A model generated the notes under the pieces. It was given only the letters and a program-made list of their open reading frames with translations. It searched no databases and was not told the origin of the DNA. The position numbers were made by a program, and so were the translations under genes. Positions 38,256 to 46,083 of a DNA stretch of 64,000 nt are shown here, piece after piece. The DNA is taken from positions 632,030-696,029 of the forward strand of contig NZ_SMZJ02000004.1 in NCBI RefSeq assembly GCF_004358095.2, written 5' to 3'. Within the stretch, counting starts at the first letter, position 1. Every line of letters starts with the position of its first letter. This stretch comes from Seonamhaeicola sediminis. GTDB lineage: Bacteria; Bacteroidota; Bacteroidia; Flavobacteriales; Flavobacteriaceae.

Positions 38256-38882
38256 TTATTTGTGTCTCCCCTTTAATTCAGCTTCAACATCCTTTAATGT
38301 AAAACCTTTTGCTTGAAGCAACATTAGGTAGTGGAACAATAAATCTGCTGATTCATACAAGAACAATGCATCATTATTATCCATCGCTTCAATAACGGTT
38401 TCAACAGCTTCCTCCCCCACTTTTTGTGCCACTTTATTAATTCCTTTTGAGAATAAGCTAGCTACATAAGACTTATTAGTTTCTTTATTTGCAACACGTT
38501 CTGCAATCACTTCTTCTAAAGTAGAAAAGAATCCGTAAGTTGATTTGTTGTCTTCTCCCCAGCAATTCCCTGTGCCTTTATGACATGTTGGACCTACTGG
38601 ATTCACTTGTATTAACAATGTGTCTTTATCACAATCGTTTTTGATATTAACTAAATTCAAAAAGTTCCCACTTTCCTCTCCCTTAGTCCACAAACGTTGT
38701 TTACTTCTGCTGTAAAAAGTTACTTTTTTAGTGTTAATCGTTTGTTGATAAGCTTCTTCATTCATATAACCTAACATCAAAACATTCTTTGTTATAGCAT
38801 CTTGAATGATGGCTGGGACTAAAGCCCCCTCTAACTCCCCCCAAGGGGGAGAAATCAAATCTTTACTGTTTTCTTTACTCAT
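38256..38882 (-). CDS. hisIE: HisIE: phosphoribosyl-AMP cyclohydrolase / phosphoribosyl-ATP pyrophosphatase
   Basis: This 208-residue bifunctional enzyme catalyses steps 2 and 3 of histidine synthesis. The HisI domain (about 21-115) has VPAIIQDAITKNVLMLGYMN, KQRLWTKGEESGNF and the metal-binding CHKGTGNCW. The HisE domain (about 118-208) has KVGEEAVETVIEA and ESADLLFHYLMLL. The N-terminus is odd: residues 11-20 (SPPWGELEGA) are encoded by a C/G-run palindromic repeat (38822-38851) that lies in frame. A normal HisI begins about eight to ten residues before the VPAIIQD block. No alternative start exists between the repeat and that block. Last gene of the his operon. Confidence 0.93.
   Translation of the reverse strand: MSKENSKDLISPPWGELEGALVPAIIQDAITKNVLMLGYMNEEAYQQTINTKKVTFYSRSKQRLWTKGEESGNFLNLVNIKNDCDKDTLLIQVNPVGPTCHKGTGNCWGEDNKSTYGFFSTLEEVIAERVANKETNKSYVASLFSKGINKVAQKVGEEAVETVIEAMDNNDALFLYESADLLFHYLMLLQAKGFTLKDVEAELKGRHK
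38822..38851. repeat. C/G-run palindromic repeat, copy 1, inside hisIE
   Basis: AAGCCCCCTCTAACTCCCC followed by CCAAGGGGGAG forms a CCCCC-AA-GGGGG hairpin. It is the inverted partner of the copy at 38951-38973. It codes in frame for residues 11-20 of HisIE. Confidence 0.8.
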
Positions 38883-38950
38883 ATTATTATTTTATAAACT
38901 TTGTAGATTAGTTTTCAAGTTATTCAATCATATCCGATTGAGTAAGCGTT

Positions 38951-38973
38951 CCCCCTTGGGGGTTAGGGGGCTT
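38951..38973. repeat. C/G-run palindromic repeat, copy 2, at the hisF stop
   Basis: CCCCCTTGGGGGTTAGGGGG followed by CTT is the reverse complement of the copy at 38822-38851, with a few base differences. Its end overlaps the hisF stop codon (38972-38974). The two copies bracket about 100 bases containing the hisF-hisIE junction. Confidence 0.8.
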
Positions 38974-39727
38974 ATAATCGTACTTCAATATTATGTTTTT
39001 TTAATTCTTTCTTTAAGTCAGGAATAGGAATTTCACCAAAGTGAAAAACGCTTGCTGCTAAAGCCGCATCAGATTTCCCTATTGTAAAGGTATCAATAAA
39101 GTGTTGTACATTACCTGCTCCACCGGAAGCAATAATTGGAATGTTCAATTCTTCTGATAATCTTGCTAACGCCTTATTAGCAAAACCACCCTTGGTACCA
39201 TCGTGATTCATTGAGGTAAATAAAATCTCTCCAGCCCCTCTTTCTTCCACTTCTTTTGCCCATTCAAACAAATCAATTTCTGTAGGAATGGTTCCTCCTG
39301 CTAAATGCACTTTCCATGCACCATCAATTTCTTTGGCGTCAATAGCAACTACAACACATTGGCTACCAAATTTATCAGCTAATTCATTTACTAATTCAGG
39401 GCGCTTTACTGCAGAAGAATTAATAGATACTTTATCTGCACCATTTTTTAGGAGAGCATCAACATGTTCCACAGATGAAATACCACCTCCAACCGTAAAT
39501 GGAATATTTACCTGTTCTGCCACATGCAATACCATTTCTAGAGTGGTTGCTCGCGCTTCAAGGGTTGCGGTGATATCTAAAAAAACTAACTCGTCAGCTC
39601 CGTAATCAGCATATTGTTTTGCTAATTCTACGGGGTCTCCAGCATCACGTAAGTCTACAAAATTAACACCTTTTACAGTGCGTCCATTTTTAATGTCTAG
39701 GCATGGTATAATTCGTTTTGTTAGCAT
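38972..39727 (-). CDS. hisF: Imidazole glycerol phosphate synthase cyclase subunit HisF
   Basis: This 251-residue TIM barrel works with HisH to make imidazole glycerol phosphate and AICAR. It starts [20 protein letters not shown] and has [34 protein letters not shown] and [11 protein letters not shown]. These include the catalytic Asp residues (CLD near 11, NHD near 130). Three bases separate it from hisA, which supports co-translation. Its stop overlaps a C/G-run repeat. Confidence 0.97.
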
Positions 39728-39730
39728 AAA

Positions 39731-40465
39731 TTACACGAATTTTTCAAGTTGTTTTAAGCTAATTCTATTTTCATAAAGGGCTTTTCCCATAATGACACCT
39801 TCACAGCCAATTTCCTTTAAGACAGGTAGTTCATCGATATGTGAAATACCTCCGGAAGCGATAAGTTTTACAGACTGACCATTACTGCTATTTGAGCATT
39901 CAGCTATAATTTGCTTATATAAATTGACAGATGGACCTTCAAGCATACCGTCTTTAGCAATGTCGGTACAAATAACATATTGTATGCTTTTCTTTTGATA
40001 TGCTTTGATGAACGGAATTAAATCTTCATTGCTATCTTCTTGCCACCCACTAATCGCAATTTTACCGGCATTACTATCTGCTCCTAAAATAATCTTTTCA
40101 CTACCATACTTAGTAATCCATCCCTCAAATGTTTTGACATCATTAACGGCAATACTACCTCCGGTAATCTGTCGAGCTCCAGAATTAAAGGCGATATGTA
40201 AATCTTCATCTGATTTTAACCCTCCTCCAAAATCTATTTTTAATTTGGTTTTTGCCGCTATTTGTTCTAAAACTTTATAGTTTACAATATGCTTTGCTTT
40301 GGCGCCATCTAAATCTACTAAATGTAAATATTCAATCCCTGAATCTTCAAACATTTTAGCTACTTCTAGCGGGTTTTCATTATATATTTTTTTTGTGTCG
40401 TAGTCTCCTTTGGTTAAACGAACACATTTACCTTCAATAATATCTATGGCAGGAATTATTCTCAT
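39731..40465 (-). CDS. hisA: ProFAR isomerase HisA
   Basis: This 244-residue TIM barrel catalyses the Amadori rearrangement of ProFAR to PRFAR in histidine synthesis. [20 protein letters not shown] (catalytic Asp8), [34 protein letters not shown] (second catalytic Asp) and [14 protein letters not shown] are visible. It sits between hisH and hisF. The upstream gap to hisH holds a GTCATTCC-family repeat. Confidence 0.97.
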
Positions 40466-40480
40466 TGATTATCTTGTTAA

Positions 40481-40548
40481 TCAACCCCAAATTTATTTCA
40501 GGGCCTAATTATTTATTTTGATAGATTCTGAAACAAGTTCAGAATGAC
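40481..40548. repeat. GTCATTCC-family palindromic repeat between hisH and hisA
   Basis: The right hairpin GATTCTGAAACAAG..TTCAGAATGAC (40524-40548) is intact. The left arm (AACCCCAAATTTATTTCAGGG) is degenerate. It fills almost all of the 84-base hisH-hisA gap. Confidence 0.7.
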
Positions 40549-40549
40549 A

Positions 40550-41131
40550 CTAAAGTGTCAAAAAATTTTGTAAAATTTTAGCGCCTTCATTTCCACTTTT
40601 TTCAGGGTGGAATTGTGTGCCATAAAAGTTTTCATGTTGTAAGGCCGATGCATAATTGATTTCATAATCCGTTGCTGCTATAGTCTCATCACAATGTTCT
40701 GCATAATAACTGTGAACCAAATACATATATTCATTTTCTTTGATGCCTTTGAACAAATCAGACTTGAGTTCCTTAATGACATTCCATCCCATTTGGGGTA
40801 CTTTAACATTTTGTGAAAAACGTTTCACCTTGGTTTGAAAAATACCTAGCCCTTTAGTATCACCTTCTTCGGTGTGTAAACACATAAGTTGCATTCCTAA
40901 ACAAATCCCTAAAACCGGTTGCTTTAAGGTTGGAATTAATGTATCTAAACCACTTTCTTTAAGCATTTTCATGGCTGAACTAGCTTCTCCAACACCAGGA
41001 AATATAACTTTATCTGCAGTTTTGATTTCTTCTGGATTTTTAGACAAAATAGCCTCATAACCAAGACGATTAAAAGCAAACTGGATACTTTTAATATTTC
41101 CAGCGCCGTAATCTATTATTACTAATTTCAT
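40550..41131 (-). CDS. hisH: Imidazole glycerol phosphate synthase glutaminase subunit HisH
   Basis: This 193-residue class I glutamine amidotransferase feeds ammonia to HisF. It has IIDYGAGNIKSIQFAFNRLG, the nucleophile in GICLGMQLM and the His/Glu pair in GTQFHPEKSG. Length and motifs are normal. It lies between hisB and hisA, and the 68-base gap to hisB is one long palindrome. Confidence 0.97.
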   Translation of the reverse strand: MKLVIIDYGAGNIKSIQFAFNRLGYEAILSKNPEEIKTADKVIFPGVGEASSAMKMLKESGLDTLIPTLKQPVLGICLGMQLMCLHTEEGDTKGLGIFQTKVKRFSQNVKVPQMGWNVIKELKSDLFKGIKENEYMYLVHSYYAEHCDETIAATDYEINYASALQHENFYGTQFHPEKSGNEGAKILQNFLTL

Positions 41132-41136
41132 TTTTA

Positions 41137-41194
41137 AGCTTTTTGCTCTTAACTTTTGCTATTTGCTAATTCCAAATAGCAAAACGCTAAAAGC
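41137..41194. repeat. Long palindrome filling the hisB-hisH gap
   Basis: Inner arms TTTTGCTATTTG/CAAATAGCAAAA and outer arms AGCTTTT/AAAAGCT make a cruciform-like element of about 58 bases. It occupies the gap between the hisH start (41131) and the hisB stop (41200). Its sequence is unrelated to the GTCATTCC family. Confidence 0.75.
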
Positions 41195-41199
41195 TATTT

Positions 41200-42336
41200 T
41201 TATAACAATCCTTTTGTACTTGGTAAAAACATTTTATTGGCATCTCGCTTAACAGCCATTTTCATGGCTTTAGCAAAAGCCTTGAAAATACCTTCAATTT
41301 TATGATGTTCATTTACCCCTTCGGCTTTCACATTTAAATTGCATTTGGCACCATCAGTAAACGATTTGAATAAGTGAAAAAACATTTCTGTTGGCATATC
41401 TCCTATTTTTTCGCGTTTAAATTCGGTATCCCATTCTAACCAATTTCTCCCTCCAAAATCAACGGCTACCTGAGCTAAACAATCGTCCATAGGTAAACAG
41501 AATCCATAGCGCTCTATGCCTAATTTGTTACCTAAAGCTTTATTGAAAACTTCACCCAAAGTAATCATAGTATCTTCAATAGTGTGGTGTTCATCAACGT
41601 CTAAATCACCATTTACTTTTACCGTTAAATCCATAGCACCATGACGCCCAATTTGATCTAGCATGTGATCAAAAAATGATAAGCCTGTATTAATATCATT
41701 TTTACCTGAACCATCTAGATTTAATTTTATATATATCTGTGTTTCATTAGTATTACGTGTAATTTCTTCAACTCTATCTTCAAGTTTTAAAAACTCATAT
41801 ATGGTTTTCCAATCTGTACTCGTCAATACAATACAATCTAAAATTTCTTGTTTAGAAGCTTTGATTTCGTCAGCTCCTAACTCAGGGTTTTCAGAGAGAT
41901 AAATACCCTTTGCTCCTAAGTTTTTAGCTAATTCCATATCGGTAATTCTATCTCCTAAAACAAAAGAATTAGCCAAATCATAGTCTTCAGAAAAATATTT
42001 CGTCAATAAACCGGTTTTAGGTTTACGCGTGTTGGCATTTTCATGTGGAAAAGTTTTATCAATATGAATGGCAGCGAACTCCACGCCTTCGTTTTTAAAC
42101 GCATCAATAATTTTATTTTGAGCTGGCCAAAACGTGTCTTCAGGAAAGGAATCGGTTCCTAAGCCATCTTGATTGGTAACCATAACAAGTTCAAAATCTA
42201 ATTCACTTGCAATTTTTGCCATGTATTGAAACACCTTGGGATAAAACTCTAATTTCTCTAAGCTATCCAATTGGTAATCTACCGGGGGCTCTAATACCAA
42301 TGTTCCGTCTCTGTCTATGAATAGTACTTTTTTCAT
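41200..42336 (-). CDS. hisB: HisB: histidinol-phosphatase / imidazoleglycerol-phosphate dehydratase
   Basis: This 378-residue bifunctional enzyme catalyses steps 7 and 9 of histidine synthesis. The HAD phosphatase domain (about 1-165) starts [12 protein letters not shown] with both Asp residues, then [10 protein letters not shown] and [11 protein letters not shown]. The IGPD domain (about 185-378) has [13 protein letters not shown] and [13 protein letters not shown], the Mn-binding repeats. The start is ATG 42336. A longer frame reaches a TTG at 42372 only by reading through a palindromic repeat. Confidence 0.95.
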
Positions 42337-42343
42337 CTTTTTT

Positions 42344-42442
42344 GTAATTCCTGCCTGTCGTCTATCGCTCAAGATAAATTTTGGCAGGAATTTATTTAAT
42401 ATTATTTGAATTTATGTGGATTCCGCATTAAGTGCGGAATAA
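42344..42442. repeat. GTCATTCC-family palindromic repeat between hisC and hisB
   Basis: The left hairpin is ATTCCTGCC...GGCAGGAAT (42347-42391, with a 27-base loop) and the right hairpin is GATTCCGCAttaagTGCGGAAT (42420-42440). The outer ends GTAATTCC and GGAATAAC are diverged copies of GTCATTCC/GGAATGAC. It fills the hisC-hisB gap. Confidence 0.7.
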
Positions 42443-42446
42443 CAAA

Positions 42447-43484
42447 TCATTTTAATTCTTTTAATACCTTTATTAATGTTTCATTTTCAGCTTGCGTTCC
42501 AACTGTAAAACGCAAACAGTTTTCACAACTAGGTTGTGAGGTTCTATTTCTTATTACAATACCCTTTTCAATGAGCTCATTATAGCGTTTGGTGGCATCA
42601 TCAACTTTTGCTAGAACAAAATTTGCATCTGAAGGGTATATTTTAGACACAAAAGAAACTTTTTTAAGTTTATCAACTAAGGTAGCTCTTTCGTGTAAAA
42701 TACATTGTACCTGACTTTGCGTTAGTTCGTGATTTTTAAGTTGTTCAATGGCTCTTTGTTGCGTCAACTCATTTACATTATATGGTGGTTTAATATTGTT
42801 CAAAACCGAAATTATTTCTTTTGAAGCATAACAAATTCCTAACCGAATTCCAGCCATACCATAAGCTTTAGATAAGGTTTGTGTTATAATCAAATTCGGA
42901 AATTCTTTTAACCTTTCAATCCAACTTGGAACATCAGAAAAGTCAATATATGCCTCATCAATAACCACAACGCCATTAAACTCTTTTAGTAATTTTTCAA
43001 TAGATTTTTGTGAAAAGCTGTTGCCTGTTGGGTTGTTTGGTGAGCATAAAAACAAAAGTTTAGTATTATTATCAGCAATTTGTAATATCTTATCAACTTG
43101 AGGTTGAAAATTATCGGATAATTGTACTTCTTTTATTCCTACCGCATTAATATTAGCTAATACACTATACATACCATACGTTGGTGGCAACGTGATAATA
43201 TTATCAATATTTGGTTCACAAAAAGCTCTATAGATTAAATCCAAAACTTCATCACTACCATTACCTAATAATATATTCTCAACAGGTATTCCTTTTAATT
43301 TTGAAAGCAAATCTTTGACGGTTCCTTGTTGTGGATCAGGATAACGATTTACACCATTTTCATAAGGATTCTCATTGGCATCTAGAAACACCATATCATC
43401 AGTATTACCTTTAAATTCATCTCTAGCTGAGGAATAAGGTTTCAACGCCTTTATGCTTGGTCTTATTAAATCTAAAACATTCAT
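42447..43484 (-). CDS. hisC: Histidinol-phosphate aminotransferase HisC
   Basis: This 345-residue PLP enzyme, fold type I, converts imidazole acetol-phosphate to histidinol-phosphate. It has VFLDANENPYENGVNRYPDP, LGNGSDEVLDLIYRAF, CSPNNPTGN, VVIDEAYIDF and QTLSKAYGMAGIRLG with the PLP lysine. The start is ATG 43484 (MNVLDLIRPSI). Upstream in-frame ATGs at 43511 and 43502 are inside a palindromic repeat and add MFGMTNDNK. Confidence 0.95.
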   Translation of the reverse strand: MNVLDLIRPSIKALKPYSSARDEFKGNTDDMVFLDANENPYENGVNRYPDPQQGTVKDLLSKLKGIPVENILLGNGSDEVLDLIYRAFCEPNIDNIITLPPTYGMYSVLANINAVGIKEVQLSDNFQPQVDKILQIADNNTKLLFLCSPNNPTGNSFSQKSIEKLLKEFNGVVVIDEAYIDFSDVPSWIERLKEFPNLIITQTLSKAYGMAGIRLGICYASKEIISVLNNIKPPYNVNELTQQRAIEQLKNHELTQSQVQCILHERATLVDKLKKVSFVSKIYPSDANFVLAKVDDATKRYNELIEKGIVIRNRTSQPSCENCLRFTVGTQAENETLIKVLKELK

Positions 43485-43497
43485 TTTGTTATCATTT

Positions 43498-43555
43498 GTC
43501 ATTCCGAACATTTTGAGGAATCTAAAAAGAGATTCTTCGCTTTGTTCTGAATGAC
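43498..43555. repeat. GTCATTCC-family palindromic repeat between hisD and hisC
   Basis: GTCATTCCGAACATTTTGAG begins and GTTCTGAATGAC ends this 58-base element. Internal AGGAATCT/AGATTCTT arms give the two-hairpin plan. It spans the whole hisD-hisC gap and supplies two spurious in-frame ATGs for hisC. Confidence 0.8.
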
Positions 43556-43557
43556 AT

Positions 43558-44841
43558 TTACTTTAAATCCTTTAATCTTATGCTTACAGCATTTTTATGT
43601 GCTTGTAGGCCTTCAGCTTCTGCCATTAACTCTATGGTTTCACCAATATTTAATATCCCTTCTTTAGATATCTTTTGAAATGTCATACTCTTTAAGAAAC
43701 TATCTAAATTAACTCCAGAATAGGCTTTACTAAACCCATTAGTTGGCAATGTATGATTGGTTCCTGAGGCGTAATCTCCCGCACTTTCAGGGGTGTAATC
43801 ACCAATAAATACTGAACCAGCATTTCTTATTCCATTCACGTAAAAATCTTCATTTTCTGTACAAATGATAAAATGCTCTGGTCCGTAGTGATTTATTAAT
43901 TCTAAAGCTTTTTTATCATCTTCAATATAGATTAACTTAGAATTATTTATAGCTTTTTCAGCTATTTCTTTTCTAGGTAAAACGGCCACCTGAGCACTCA
44001 CTTCATTAGCAACTTTATTAATCATTTCTTTTGATGTACAAACCAAAATAACTTGACTGTCGGTACCATGTTCTGCCTGACTTAACAAATCTGAAGCAAT
44101 ATATGCAGGGTTAGCACTTTTATCAGCAACCACCAACAATTCACTTGGTCCTGCAGGCATATCTATGGCTACGCCATATTTTGTAGCTAATTGTTTTGCA
44201 ACCGTTACAAACTGATTTCCTGGCCCGAAAATTTTATAAACTTGCGGGATGGTTTCTGTTCCAAAAGTTAATGCGGCCACCGCCTGAATACCACCAACTT
44301 TAAAAATCTTAGTCACGCCACACAGTTTAGCAGCATATAAAATTTCTGCGGCCAACTTCCCTTCTTTATTGGGTGGTGAACATAAAACAATGTCATTACA
44401 ACCTGCAATTTGAGCTGGTGCAGCTAACATTAAAACTGTAGAAAACAAAGGTGCTGTTCCTCCAGGAATGTATAAACCCACGCTTTCAATAGGACGCTTT
44501 TCTTGCCAACATTGTACACCATTAGTTGTTTGAACAGTAACTATAGATGTTTTTTGAGCAGCGTGAAAAGCTTCAATGTTTTGCTTTGCGTTTGCAATAG
44601 CCTCTTTTAAAGTTTCTGGAATGGTTTTAATAGCATCTTCAATTTCTTTAGTAGAAACTAAATTACTAGCCAGATTAACCTTATCAAATCGTTTAGTATA
44701 GCGCTTGATTGCTTGGTCTCCGTTATTTTGAACTTCAACAAATACTTCGCTAACAATACCTTCAATATCATCAACAGTTTGTGTAGGACGCTTTAGAATA
44801 TCAGACCAAGTACTTCTATTTGGATTATCTATTATTTGCAT
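43558..44841 (-). CDS. hisD: Histidinol dehydrogenase HisD
   Basis: This 427-residue zinc and NAD-dependent enzyme catalyses the last two oxidations, from histidinol to histidine. It has VGLYIPGGTAPLFSTVLMLA, CSPPNKEGK, DMPAGPSELLVVADKSA, DLLSQAEHGTDSQVIL (zinc-site Gln/His), YGPEHFIICTE and YASGTNHTLPT. Length is normal. It follows hisG after a 74-base gap that contains a repeat. Confidence 0.97.
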   Translation of the reverse strand: MQIIDNPNRSTWSDILKRPTQTVDDIEGIVSEVFVEVQNNGDQAIKRYTKRFDKVNLASNLVSTKEIEDAIKTIPETLKEAIANAKQNIEAFHAAQKTSIVTVQTTNGVQCWQEKRPIESVGLYIPGGTAPLFSTVLMLAAPAQIAGCNDIVLCSPPNKEGKLAAEILYAAKLCGVTKIFKVGGIQAVAALTFGTETIPQVYKIFGPGNQFVTVAKQLATKYGVAIDMPAGPSELLVVADKSANPAYIASDLLSQAEHGTDSQVILVCTSKEMINKVANEVSAQVAVLPRKEIAEKAINNSKLIYIEDDKKALELINHYGPEHFIICTENEDFYVNGIRNAGSVFIGDYTPESAGDYASGTNHTLPTNGFSKAYSGVNLDSFLKSMTFQKISKEGILNIGETIELMAEAEGLQAHKNAVSIRLKDLK

Positions 44842-44915: not shown

Positions 44916-45773
44916 TTAAAGTACCATTTTTTCAATTGGACACACTAAAATACCTTGGGCGCCATTCGCTTTAAGCTCATCAATAACATCCCAGAATTCA
45001 TTTTTACTAATTACAGAATGTACTGAACTCCAACCTTCTTCTGCTAGTGGCAACACGGTTGGGCTTTTCATTCCTGGTAATAAACTTACTATTTTTTCAA
45101 GTTTATCATTAGGTGCGTTTAATAGCACATATTTTGAGTTCTTACCTTTTAAAACAGCTTTCATTCTAAATAAAAGCGTATCCAAAATCTGCTGTTTATC
45201 TTCTGATAAGTCTGGAGTTGCTGTTAAAACTGCTTCACTTTTAAAAAGTACTTCAACCTCCTTTAAATTATTTTTAAACAAGGTACTTCCGCTTGAAACT
45301 ATATCAACAATGGCATTTGCTAAACCAATATTTGGTGCAATTTCTACCGACCCATTTATAATGTGTATATCGGCTTTTTCACCTTTATTTTCAAAATACT
45401 GATGTACAGTATTTGGATAGGAAGTGGCTATTTTTTTACCACGCAAATCCTCTATAGAATTATATTCAGCGTCTTTAGGAACTGCTATAGATACTTTACA
45501 TTTAGAAAAACCTAAACGCTCTACAATTGGCAAATCTTGTCCTTTTTCAATTAGTGTGTTTTCACCTAAAATAGCAATATCAACTACGCCATCACGTAAA
45601 TATTGAGGAATATCGCCATTACGTAAATACAAAACTTCCATAGGGAAATTTCTAGCCTCTGCCTTTAACTGGTCTTTACCATTATCTATGGATATACCAC
45701 AATTTTTTAATAATTCTAACGACTCTTCATTTAATCGTCCTGATTTTTGAACTGCAATTTTTAACTTACTCAT
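44916..45773 (-). CDS. hisG: ATP phosphoribosyltransferase HisG (long form)
   Basis: This 285-residue first enzyme of histidine synthesis joins ATP and PRPP and is feedback-inhibited by histidine. It has LKIAVQKSGRLNEESLELL, RNGDIPQYLRDGVVDIAILG and KIATSYPNTVHQYF, with the PRPP loop region at VDIVSSGSTL. The C-terminal regulatory ACT-like domain (about 210-285) marks the long form that needs no HisZ. The start is ATG 45773 (MSKLKIAVQ). First structural gene of the his operon, 48 bases after the attenuator. Confidence 0.96.
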   Translation of the reverse strand: MSKLKIAVQKSGRLNEESLELLKNCGISIDNGKDQLKAEARNFPMEVLYLRNGDIPQYLRDGVVDIAILGENTLIEKGQDLPIVERLGFSKCKVSIAVPKDAEYNSIEDLRGKKIATSYPNTVHQYFENKGEKADIHIINGSVEIAPNIGLANAIVDIVSSGSTLFKNNLKEVEVLFKSEAVLTATPDLSEDKQQILDTLLFRMKAVLKGKNSKYVLLNAPNDKLEKIVSLLPGMKSPTVLPLAEEGWSSVHSVISKNEFWDVIDELKANGAQGILVCPIEKMVL

Positions 45774-45820
45774 TTTGTTTTTGTTATGAGTTTGAAACAA
45801 CCTAGTTGATTTTATAAATG

Positions 45821-45851
45821 AAAAACCCGCTTGATTGTCTCAAACGGGTTT
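45821..45851 (-). terminator. his attenuator: intrinsic terminator in the leader
   Basis: In the minus-strand RNA, AAACCCGTTTGA and TCAAGCGGGTTT form a 12-pair stem (one G-U) around loop GACAA, followed by five U. It stands 48 bases before hisG and 32 bases after the stop of the His-rich leader frame. Its 5' arm (45838-45846) can instead pair with 45889-45897 in the leader, nine pairs with one G-U, which would block the terminator. Confidence 0.88.
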
Positions 45852-45882
45852 AAATATATTATTGATTTTATTCAATACATTT

Positions 45883-45936
45883 TCACTTCGCTTGAGAGCA
45901 AATATGAAAATGATGATGTGTTTGAATAAAAGTCAT
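45883..45936 (-). CDS. hisL: His-operon leader peptide (17 residues, four His)
   Basis: ATG at 45936 opens the frame MTFIQTHHHFHICSQAK with a TGA at 45883-45885. Four of five consecutive codons 7-11 are CAT (His), as expected for a ribosome-stalling leader peptide. Ribosome stalling here under histidine shortage would leave 45889-45897 free to form the antiterminator. Complete translation would cover it and let the terminator at 45821-45851 form. Codons and pairings were checked base by base on the minus strand. A near-consensus -7 element (GATATTTG at 45954-45961) lies 18 bases upstream. Confidence 0.88.
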   Translation of the reverse strand: MTFIQTHHHFHICSQAK

Positions 45937-46083
45937 TTTTTACTTTGTTTTTGCAAATATCTATAAAACTTGATTAAAATTCCAAATAAAGCCTTTGATT
46001 TTTTAAAATTTAGTTTTTAATCAAATATGACCTCTAATTGTTATTTAAAATTTAAAATATAAGCAAGAAAACTGATTTTTTAT
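45937..46083. other. Promoter region of the his operon and 3' end of the prohibitin gene
   Basis: There is no coding frame here. It should hold the his promoter (near-consensus GATATTTG on the minus strand at 45954-45961). No clear terminator for the upstream minus-strand prohibitin-like gene is visible, so read-through into the his leader is possible. Confidence 0.4.

Follow-up and report, generated by a model that had tools for sequence, protein, structure and literature searches.

Does the histidine operon of Seonamhaeicola sediminis, a member of the Flavobacteriaceae, carry a leader that links the translation of histidine codons to the termination of transcription? Most accounts of leader-peptide attenuation come from Proteobacteria, Actinobacteria and some Firmicutes, and the question is raised here by a short, histidine-rich reading frame that stands before hisG. 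The window, as we call the whole stretch of DNA that was analysed, is 64,000 nucleotides of contig NZ_SMZJ02000004.1, and positions are given in its coordinates. On its minus strand, the frame MTFIQTHHHFHICSQAK (45936-45883) is followed by an intrinsic terminator (45851-45821) and then by hisG of a complete his operon, an arrangement in which an earlier reading made from the letters alone (the sequence-only reading) had seen ribosome-mediated attenuation.

A run of codons for the end product, an intrinsic terminator and an antiterminator with the corresponding geometry and pairing are all found at this locus; the anatomy is that of an attenuator, its geometry is nearly fixed and its conservation is wide. 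We consider it highly probable that a classical his-type ribosome-mediated (leader-peptide) transcription attenuator precedes the hisG operon. Two features are absent from the sequence-only reading, namely a covarying segment before hisG and the class-wide spread of the leader.

The his operon and its leader

The first operon gene, hisG (44916-45773, minus strand; NCBIfam TIGR00070), is followed in the same direction by hisD, hisC, hisB, hisH, hisA, hisF and hisIE (38256-44841, minus strand), which are assigned by NCBIfam models that name hisB as bifunctional. The closest named relatives of hisG belong to Tamlana (91% identical), and identity reaches up to 96% in other genomes of the same genus. 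Two of the open reading frame calls in the operon begin at an upstream TTG: that of hisG starts at 45800, and the alignment of its relatives starts at the ATG at 45773; that of hisB spans 41200-42372, and the HisB family matches start at residue 13 of this longer frame.

The leader peptide frame, identified as an open reading frame and by its conservation, runs on the minus strand from the ATG at 45936 to the TGA at 45883 and is 17 codons long, as had been described. The four His codons reported within codons 7-11 are present, at codons 7, 8, 9 and 11, of which the fourth (codon 11, 45904-45906) is unconserved in the alignment of relatives, where its place is taken by H, Y, Q, L, C or N. The sensor is therefore the HHH or HHHH run, represented here by the CAT CAT CAT of codons 7-9 (45910-45918), which is conserved in the same alignment. 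Among the 103 unique leaders defined below there are 415 His codons, 383 of them CAT and 32 CAC.

Bacteroidota promoters follow the consensus TTG / TAnnTTTG. A candidate −7 element, GATATTTG (45954-45961, minus strand), matches five of the six fixed bases of TAnnTTTG and ends 17 nt before the leader ATG, with a candidate −33 element, TTTG (45983-45986, minus strand), separated from it by a 21-nt spacer. A −7 box with at least five of six matches, together with a TTG, occurs in 70% of the 103 leaders compared with 15% of shuffles. These elements suggest that a Bacteroidota-like promoter sits 5' of the leader frame.

The terminator (45821-45851, minus strand) consists of a 12-pair stem formed by 45851-45840 and 45834-45823, the loop GACAA (45839-45835) and a T run to 45821. 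Its sequence from 45851 to 45823 is AAACCCGTTTGA-gacaa-TCAAGCGGGTTT, one of the 12 pairs is a G-U, and TTCATTT comes after the stem, which confirms the U-tailed 12-pair hairpin of the sequence-only reading, with a T tract that is short. The antiterminator arm TCTCAAGCG (segment 2; 45889-45897, minus strand) lies within the end of the peptide frame, and its partner CGTTTGAGA (segment 3; 45838-45846, minus strand) is made up of part of the terminator 5' arm and loop. Paired as 45897-45889 with 45846-45838, they form nine base pairs including one G-U, in agreement with the nine-base pairing claimed earlier. Segment 2 begins 15 nt past the first base of the run's final His codon, and from the start of segment 2 it is 12 nt to the stop codon.

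Loci and criteria

Within the 260 nt before hisG, a frame was counted when it began with ATG, spanned 8-50 codons and had three or more His in six residues. The relatives comprised 80 loci from named genomes and a set of 59 related genomes, 41 of which had hisG and 30 of which were returned as loci; G051 was left out, its hisG being split over two contigs, and L082, a duplicate that represents the window's own copy (L001 was kept), was excluded from the count of 110 loci. Structure counts exclude three loci that have no ATG His frame, namely L015, where the contig holds no more than 180 nt before hisG, as well as L047 and L106, whose frames, as read by hand, hold just two nearby His codons. 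The remaining 108 loci gave 103 unique stop-to-hisG regions, and alignment A1 contains 99 leaders, identical ones having been removed. The segment 5 analysis described below used the 101 loci with enough room, L101 and L107 being dropped.

The class set of 77 loci combines the hisG matches of 68 genomes other than the window's own, from a draw of 158 in which just 69 genomes had a hisG match, with nine loci from the 59-genome set, seven from the order and two from the family; one of the 68 genomes is also among the 59 related ones. For the phylum, 20 of 97 genomes with a match were taken, 17 of the 20 lying outside the class.

Conservation of the leader

A His-rich ATG frame precedes hisG at 107 of the 110 mostly Flavobacteriaceae loci (107 distinct sequences among the 110); dinucleotide shuffles give 0.5 on average and 2 at most, and the reverse strand gives 0 of 110. 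Across the class the frame is present at 66 of 77 loci from 37 families (shuffle mean 1.0, maximum 3; reverse strand 0), rising to 70 of 77 under a looser criterion. When 12 other amino acids were tried with the same frame criterion, none was found in more than five loci of either set. The two strands of the window hold six short ATG frames with at least three His in six residues, the leader included, so a single such frame is weak by itself and the significance comes from conservation. Six such frames in 64 kb are what speaks for a chance origin, in which a CAT-rich stretch happens to lie beside the ordinary terminator of an upstream gene; the counts among relatives and across the class contradict this, and we give it practically no credence. 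The His frame is instead common equipment of hisG loci across the class, and no quirk of one genome.

The spacing of the elements is conserved together with the frame. In 97 of 103 leaders, 14-17 nt separate the last His of the run from the antiterminator arm (the median is 15, and the extremes are 1 and 28). Extra His codons in the alignment are added 5' in the run, so that the distance to segment 2 stays the same, and the stop codon lies 10-14 nt past the start of segment 2 in 94 of 103. The antiterminator pairing has a median of 9 bp; of the 103 unique leaders, 101 reach 7 bp or more and 90 reach 8 bp or more. Loss of the His frame or of the pairing in relatives had been named in advance as evidence against attenuation, and the opposite was found; the frame, the arm pairing and the near-fixed distance all support the ribosome-mediated reading.

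Covariation in both stems had been named as a sign in favour. Compensated double changes are seen, in one sequence or more, at 5 of 11 pairs of the terminator stem, but covariation in the antiterminator is thin because segments 2 and 3 are highly conserved in the family. The first base of segment 2 is paired with its terminator-loop partner in 46 of 74 leaders, with 27.9 expected, a count that took only leaders where both patterns were found and that ignores kinship. In L032, L067, L094 and L102, an early stop falls inside the antiterminator arm and the arm is still able to pair via G-U; with the frame truncated and the pairing intact, the arm seems to be kept as RNA and not as peptide. The QAK/QAR tail of the peptide, too, looks conserved as RNA rather than protein.

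Other families of the class have a similar order with different arm sequences (for example GGCTTACC), and the His run lies 14-20 nt from the arm in 38 of the 65 class loci with a called terminator. Over the 77 class-wide loci, a qualifying ATG frame is missing in 10 and a terminator in 2, and several of the terminator calls look spurious (for example L117, L136, L138, L156, L180, L182, L183 and L185). Of the 65 loci for which a terminator was called, 29 have the end of the terminator itself 14-30 nt before the ATG. Outside the window's order, the His frame appears better supported than the full switch.

Beyond the class, 9 of 17 phylum loci have, by raw count, a frame with at least three His in seven residues, and four of these nine frames are 30-47 codons long. 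His-rich frames before hisG outside the class are seen at L205-L213 (families f82, f87, f89, f90 and f95). No such frame is present at the other 8 of the 17 (f79, f80 twice, f83, f84 twice, f91 and f97), at three of which HisG is only about 30% identical.

Rfam returned no family at gathering score over the whole window, and His_leader was absent from the matches up to E = 5 in 45770-46083. The best of the weak matches around the leader have E values of 0.16 and 0.31, the second being Trp_leader at 18.1 bits where 41 are required. A conserved, structured leader is also what would be expected if an RNA sensor other than the ribosome (a T-box, a riboswitch or an antiterminator protein) used the terminator and the frame were incidental. 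Such a sensor is extremely improbable given the Rfam result and a conserved spacing that is measured from the His codons themselves, and ribosome-mediated attenuation is again the preferred reading.

Folding of the leader

The leader (45945-45815) folds at −37.1 kcal/mol, compared with −15.55 +/− 3.05 kcal/mol for 200 dinucleotide shuffles (z = −7.07), none of which equals it. In its minimum-energy fold, segments 1 and 2 form a leader hairpin (45863-45935, minus strand) with an inner stem at 45912-45878 and an outer stem that includes two bases of the start codon, U and G, together with sequence 3' of the stop. The sequence-only reading held that full translation hides the antiterminator arm. 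Covering by the ribosome would do so, but the 1:2 hairpin leaves the arm (45897-45889) partly paired, with its CUCA forming the loop. Among the relatives, the pre-terminator part has a z below −2 in 89 of 103 leaders, and the paired share of segment 2 in the 1:2 fold has a median of 0.50, being at least 0.7 in 1 of 103. The consensus fold of the leader alignment contains the terminator only, with no 1:2 consensus stem.

Even when the region under a stalled ribosome is masked, equilibrium folding favours the terminator in most leaders; the antiterminator exceeds a probability of 0.5 in 9 of 73, the median being 0.01. Since equilibrium prefers the terminator, the attenuator model needs a co-transcriptional order of folding, on which the attenuators of Enterobacteria likewise depend.

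Proposed mechanism

From the arrangement of these elements we infer where transcription starts, where the ribosome stalls, when termination takes place and how the operon responds to histidine. The transcript would begin shortly 5' of the leader frame. A shortage of charged tRNA-His would stall the ribosome while one of the codons of the HHH run occupies the A site. A stalled ribosome covers about 12-14 nt downstream, and segment 2, which starts 15 nt past the last His, would be left free to pair with segment 3; this 2:3 pairing would block the terminator, and the his operon would be read. When histidine is plentiful, the ribosome would move on to the stop codon, which lies 12 nt from the start of segment 2, and would cover that segment, upon which segments 3 and 4 would form the terminator. 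The distances to the last His and to the stop are those that a stalled or a finished ribosome needs, the footprint being a matter of general knowledge. The leader most likely turns the his genes on when histidine is short, and an attenuator would account for a short frame that gene callers overlook.

Other loci of the same genome

When the genome of S. sediminis was scanned with the leader model R1, a high score was obtained at the hisG locus only (124 bits). The next match (29.8 bits, E 0.008) is the terminator that follows an rplI-like gene, which lies two genes before hisS; hisS itself has no His frame ahead of it (gene names as read by hand). The three weaker matches include the hisG leader read on its reverse strand. 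trpE is preceded by a WWW leader frame, MNNFLNNTWWWCSRN (L189:1319-1366, contig C1), and then by a strong terminator that ends about 10 nt before the trpE ATG. Frame and terminator together make a candidate classical trp attenuator, and leader-peptide attenuation therefore probably reaches beyond his in S. sediminis. No obvious leader was seen at ilvD in the same genome.

A fifth segment beside the hisG start

Segment 5, GGTTGTTTCAAAC (45790-45802, minus strand), can pair over 13 nt, including two G-U, with 45845-45833 and covaries with the terminator loop. Its partner, GTTTGAGACAATC (45833-45845, minus strand), runs from the upper 5' arm of the terminator through the loop and 2 nt into the 3' arm. 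Segment 5 ends 16 nt before the hisG ATG in the window. A strong ungapped match is present in 73 of 101 loci, where the distance from the 3' end of segment 5 to the ATG has a median of 16 nt (quartiles 14-17), and is missing in the other 28. By eye, at least 10 loci in which repeats or other additional sequence separate the terminator from hisG are without segment 5. Inverted repeats (for example CCCGCTTTCTCGGG-like) or other extra sequence before hisG occur in L003, L023, L024, L046, L049, L051, L058, L059, L061 and L088. In the class set, segment 5 is found in f1 and in six other families of the 37.

In a swap test on 26 clusters at below 75% identity, misses included, each locus's own pairing scored 21.5 and swapped pairings 17.3, and none of 20,000 permutations was as high; in only 7 of the 26 clusters did the own partner rank first or share first place. 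Seven loci from six other families, among them L113 with a quite different arm, gave 26.1 for own and 18.2 for swapped pairings (11 of 20,000), these seven having been chosen for showing the pairing and the 26-cluster test being unselected. Changes were also placed on a hisG tree, with 65 loci picked because their pairing is near-complete, a choice that inflates coincident changes. At the second loop base, 10 of 12 changes share a branch with a partner change (1.3 expected) and 9 end paired. The corresponding figures are 4 of 5 at the third loop base, with 2 ending paired, 6 of 10 at the fourth, with 6 paired, and 0 of 3 at the first. In 65 loci selected in this manner the complementarity is centred on the loop and stops sharply at the basal CCC, the next three positions being paired in 0, 0 and 3 of 65, an edge that an A-rich, G-poor start region could also produce. 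That the pairing of segment 5 with the terminator loop is under selection appears well supported by these comparisons.

The isolated hairpin 3:4 is stabler than 3:5 in 72 of 73 loci, and the equilibrium probability of 3:5 exceeds 0.5 in 10 of 73, with 0.60 in the window's own leader. A cis hairpin 3:5 as the dominant fold is therefore unsupported at equilibrium. With the plain terminator favoured over 3:5, a loop-centred contact, in cis or in trans, is possible, and so is the lack of any function. For the latter, the terminator and segment 5 form an imperfect inverted repeat, whose adjacent copies would be kept alike by replication template switching. The loss of segment 5 from at least 10 loci by eye and the 28 of 101 without a strong match, where it would be dispensable, are consistent with this, as are the small number of clusters in which the own partner is best or tied and the greater stability of 3:4. 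Template switching fits less well with a near-constant distance to the hisG ATG over 73 loci, with complementarity that ends sharply at the CCC clamp and with the presence of segment 5 in six other families with partly different arms, and we judge a nonfunctional segment unlikely, while giving it appreciable weight.

Under the preferred reading of segment 5 as a selected element, its role should not be in the termination decision, since it is transcribed after the terminator; it could matter in the read-through mRNA or as a target in trans. We tentatively propose, as a possibility that deserves serious consideration, that the pairing lowers hisG translation, either in read-through mRNA or through the terminated leader RNA acting in trans. 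It would then act on the few transcripts that read through while histidine is plentiful. In F. johnsoniae, structure near the start codon tunes initiation, according to PMC6847099, and the corresponding region would be reached by a hairpin or pseudoknot whose end lies 14-17 nt before the ATG.

This tuning, and the end of a segment about 14-17 nt before the hisG ATG that pairs with the terminator hairpin, would also suit a different account of the whole leader, in which the His-rich frame works via translation (coupling, reinitiation or occlusion of the hisG start) or via Rho, and not via intrinsic termination. The unique, aligned leaders have a strong intrinsic terminator with a T tract 3' of the frame, and segments 2 and 3 pair in the classical manner, which makes this account very unlikely; transcription attenuation is retained as the preferred account. 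If the proposed role of segment 5 is true, the histidine supply would be read once by the ribosome and applied at two levels, the end of transcription and the translation of hisG, in a lineage where translation does not depend on Shine-Dalgarno pairing by the ribosome. The pairing between terminator loop and start region, if functional, would be an extra regulatory layer of which no description was found.

Comparison with known systems

The ribosomes of this lineage are reported, in PMC9976891, not to recognise Shine-Dalgarno sequences, and a term search of that paper did not find the word attenuation. Naville and Gautheret (2010; PMC2965389) state that leader-peptide systems had to their knowledge previously been shown only in Proteobacteria and Actinobacteria, and they add Bacilli; words beginning with 'Bacteroid' are absent from its main text. 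The leader of the Bacilli hisS-paralogue/hisZ genes, as presented in the same paper, resembles the present one in its premature terminator and in its short frame, where several His codons stand in a stretch, and is unlike it in belonging to other genes and another phylum. Parts of PMC4833913 deal with his attenuation in gammaproteobacteria and in Bacillus/Clostridium and there mention Bacteroidetes only for leader-frame spacing, and PMC1262725 covers Actinobacteria.

No Bacteroidota his attenuator was found in the literature searched on Bacteroidota attenuators and leader peptides. A 2010 survey by Lopatovskaya, Seliverstov and Lyubetsky may include Bacteroidetes, and an earlier prediction of a Bacteroidota his attenuator may exist. 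The mechanism of attenuation is known, the lineage is little described, and for the covarying element no description was found. Histidine control, and perhaps tryptophan control, in gut, soil and marine Bacteroidota would become predictable from sequence, and the leader would offer a natural codon-stalling reporter where Shine-Dalgarno sequences mostly go unused.

In Sinorhizobium, the terminated trp leader rnTrpL acts in trans, which the trans reading of segment 5 would resemble, trans action being hypothetical here. The closest comparison for the leader as a whole is with the his operon leader of Enterobacteria (Rfam RF00514, His_leader). The two are alike in the run of His codons within a short frame, the choice between antiterminator and terminator, the stop codon placed so that a ribosome there covers the antiterminator arm, and hisG as first gene. 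The leader described here differs from that of Enterobacteria in having no Rfam match at gathering score, in belonging to another lineage, in its three or four consecutive His codons and in the extra segment 5.
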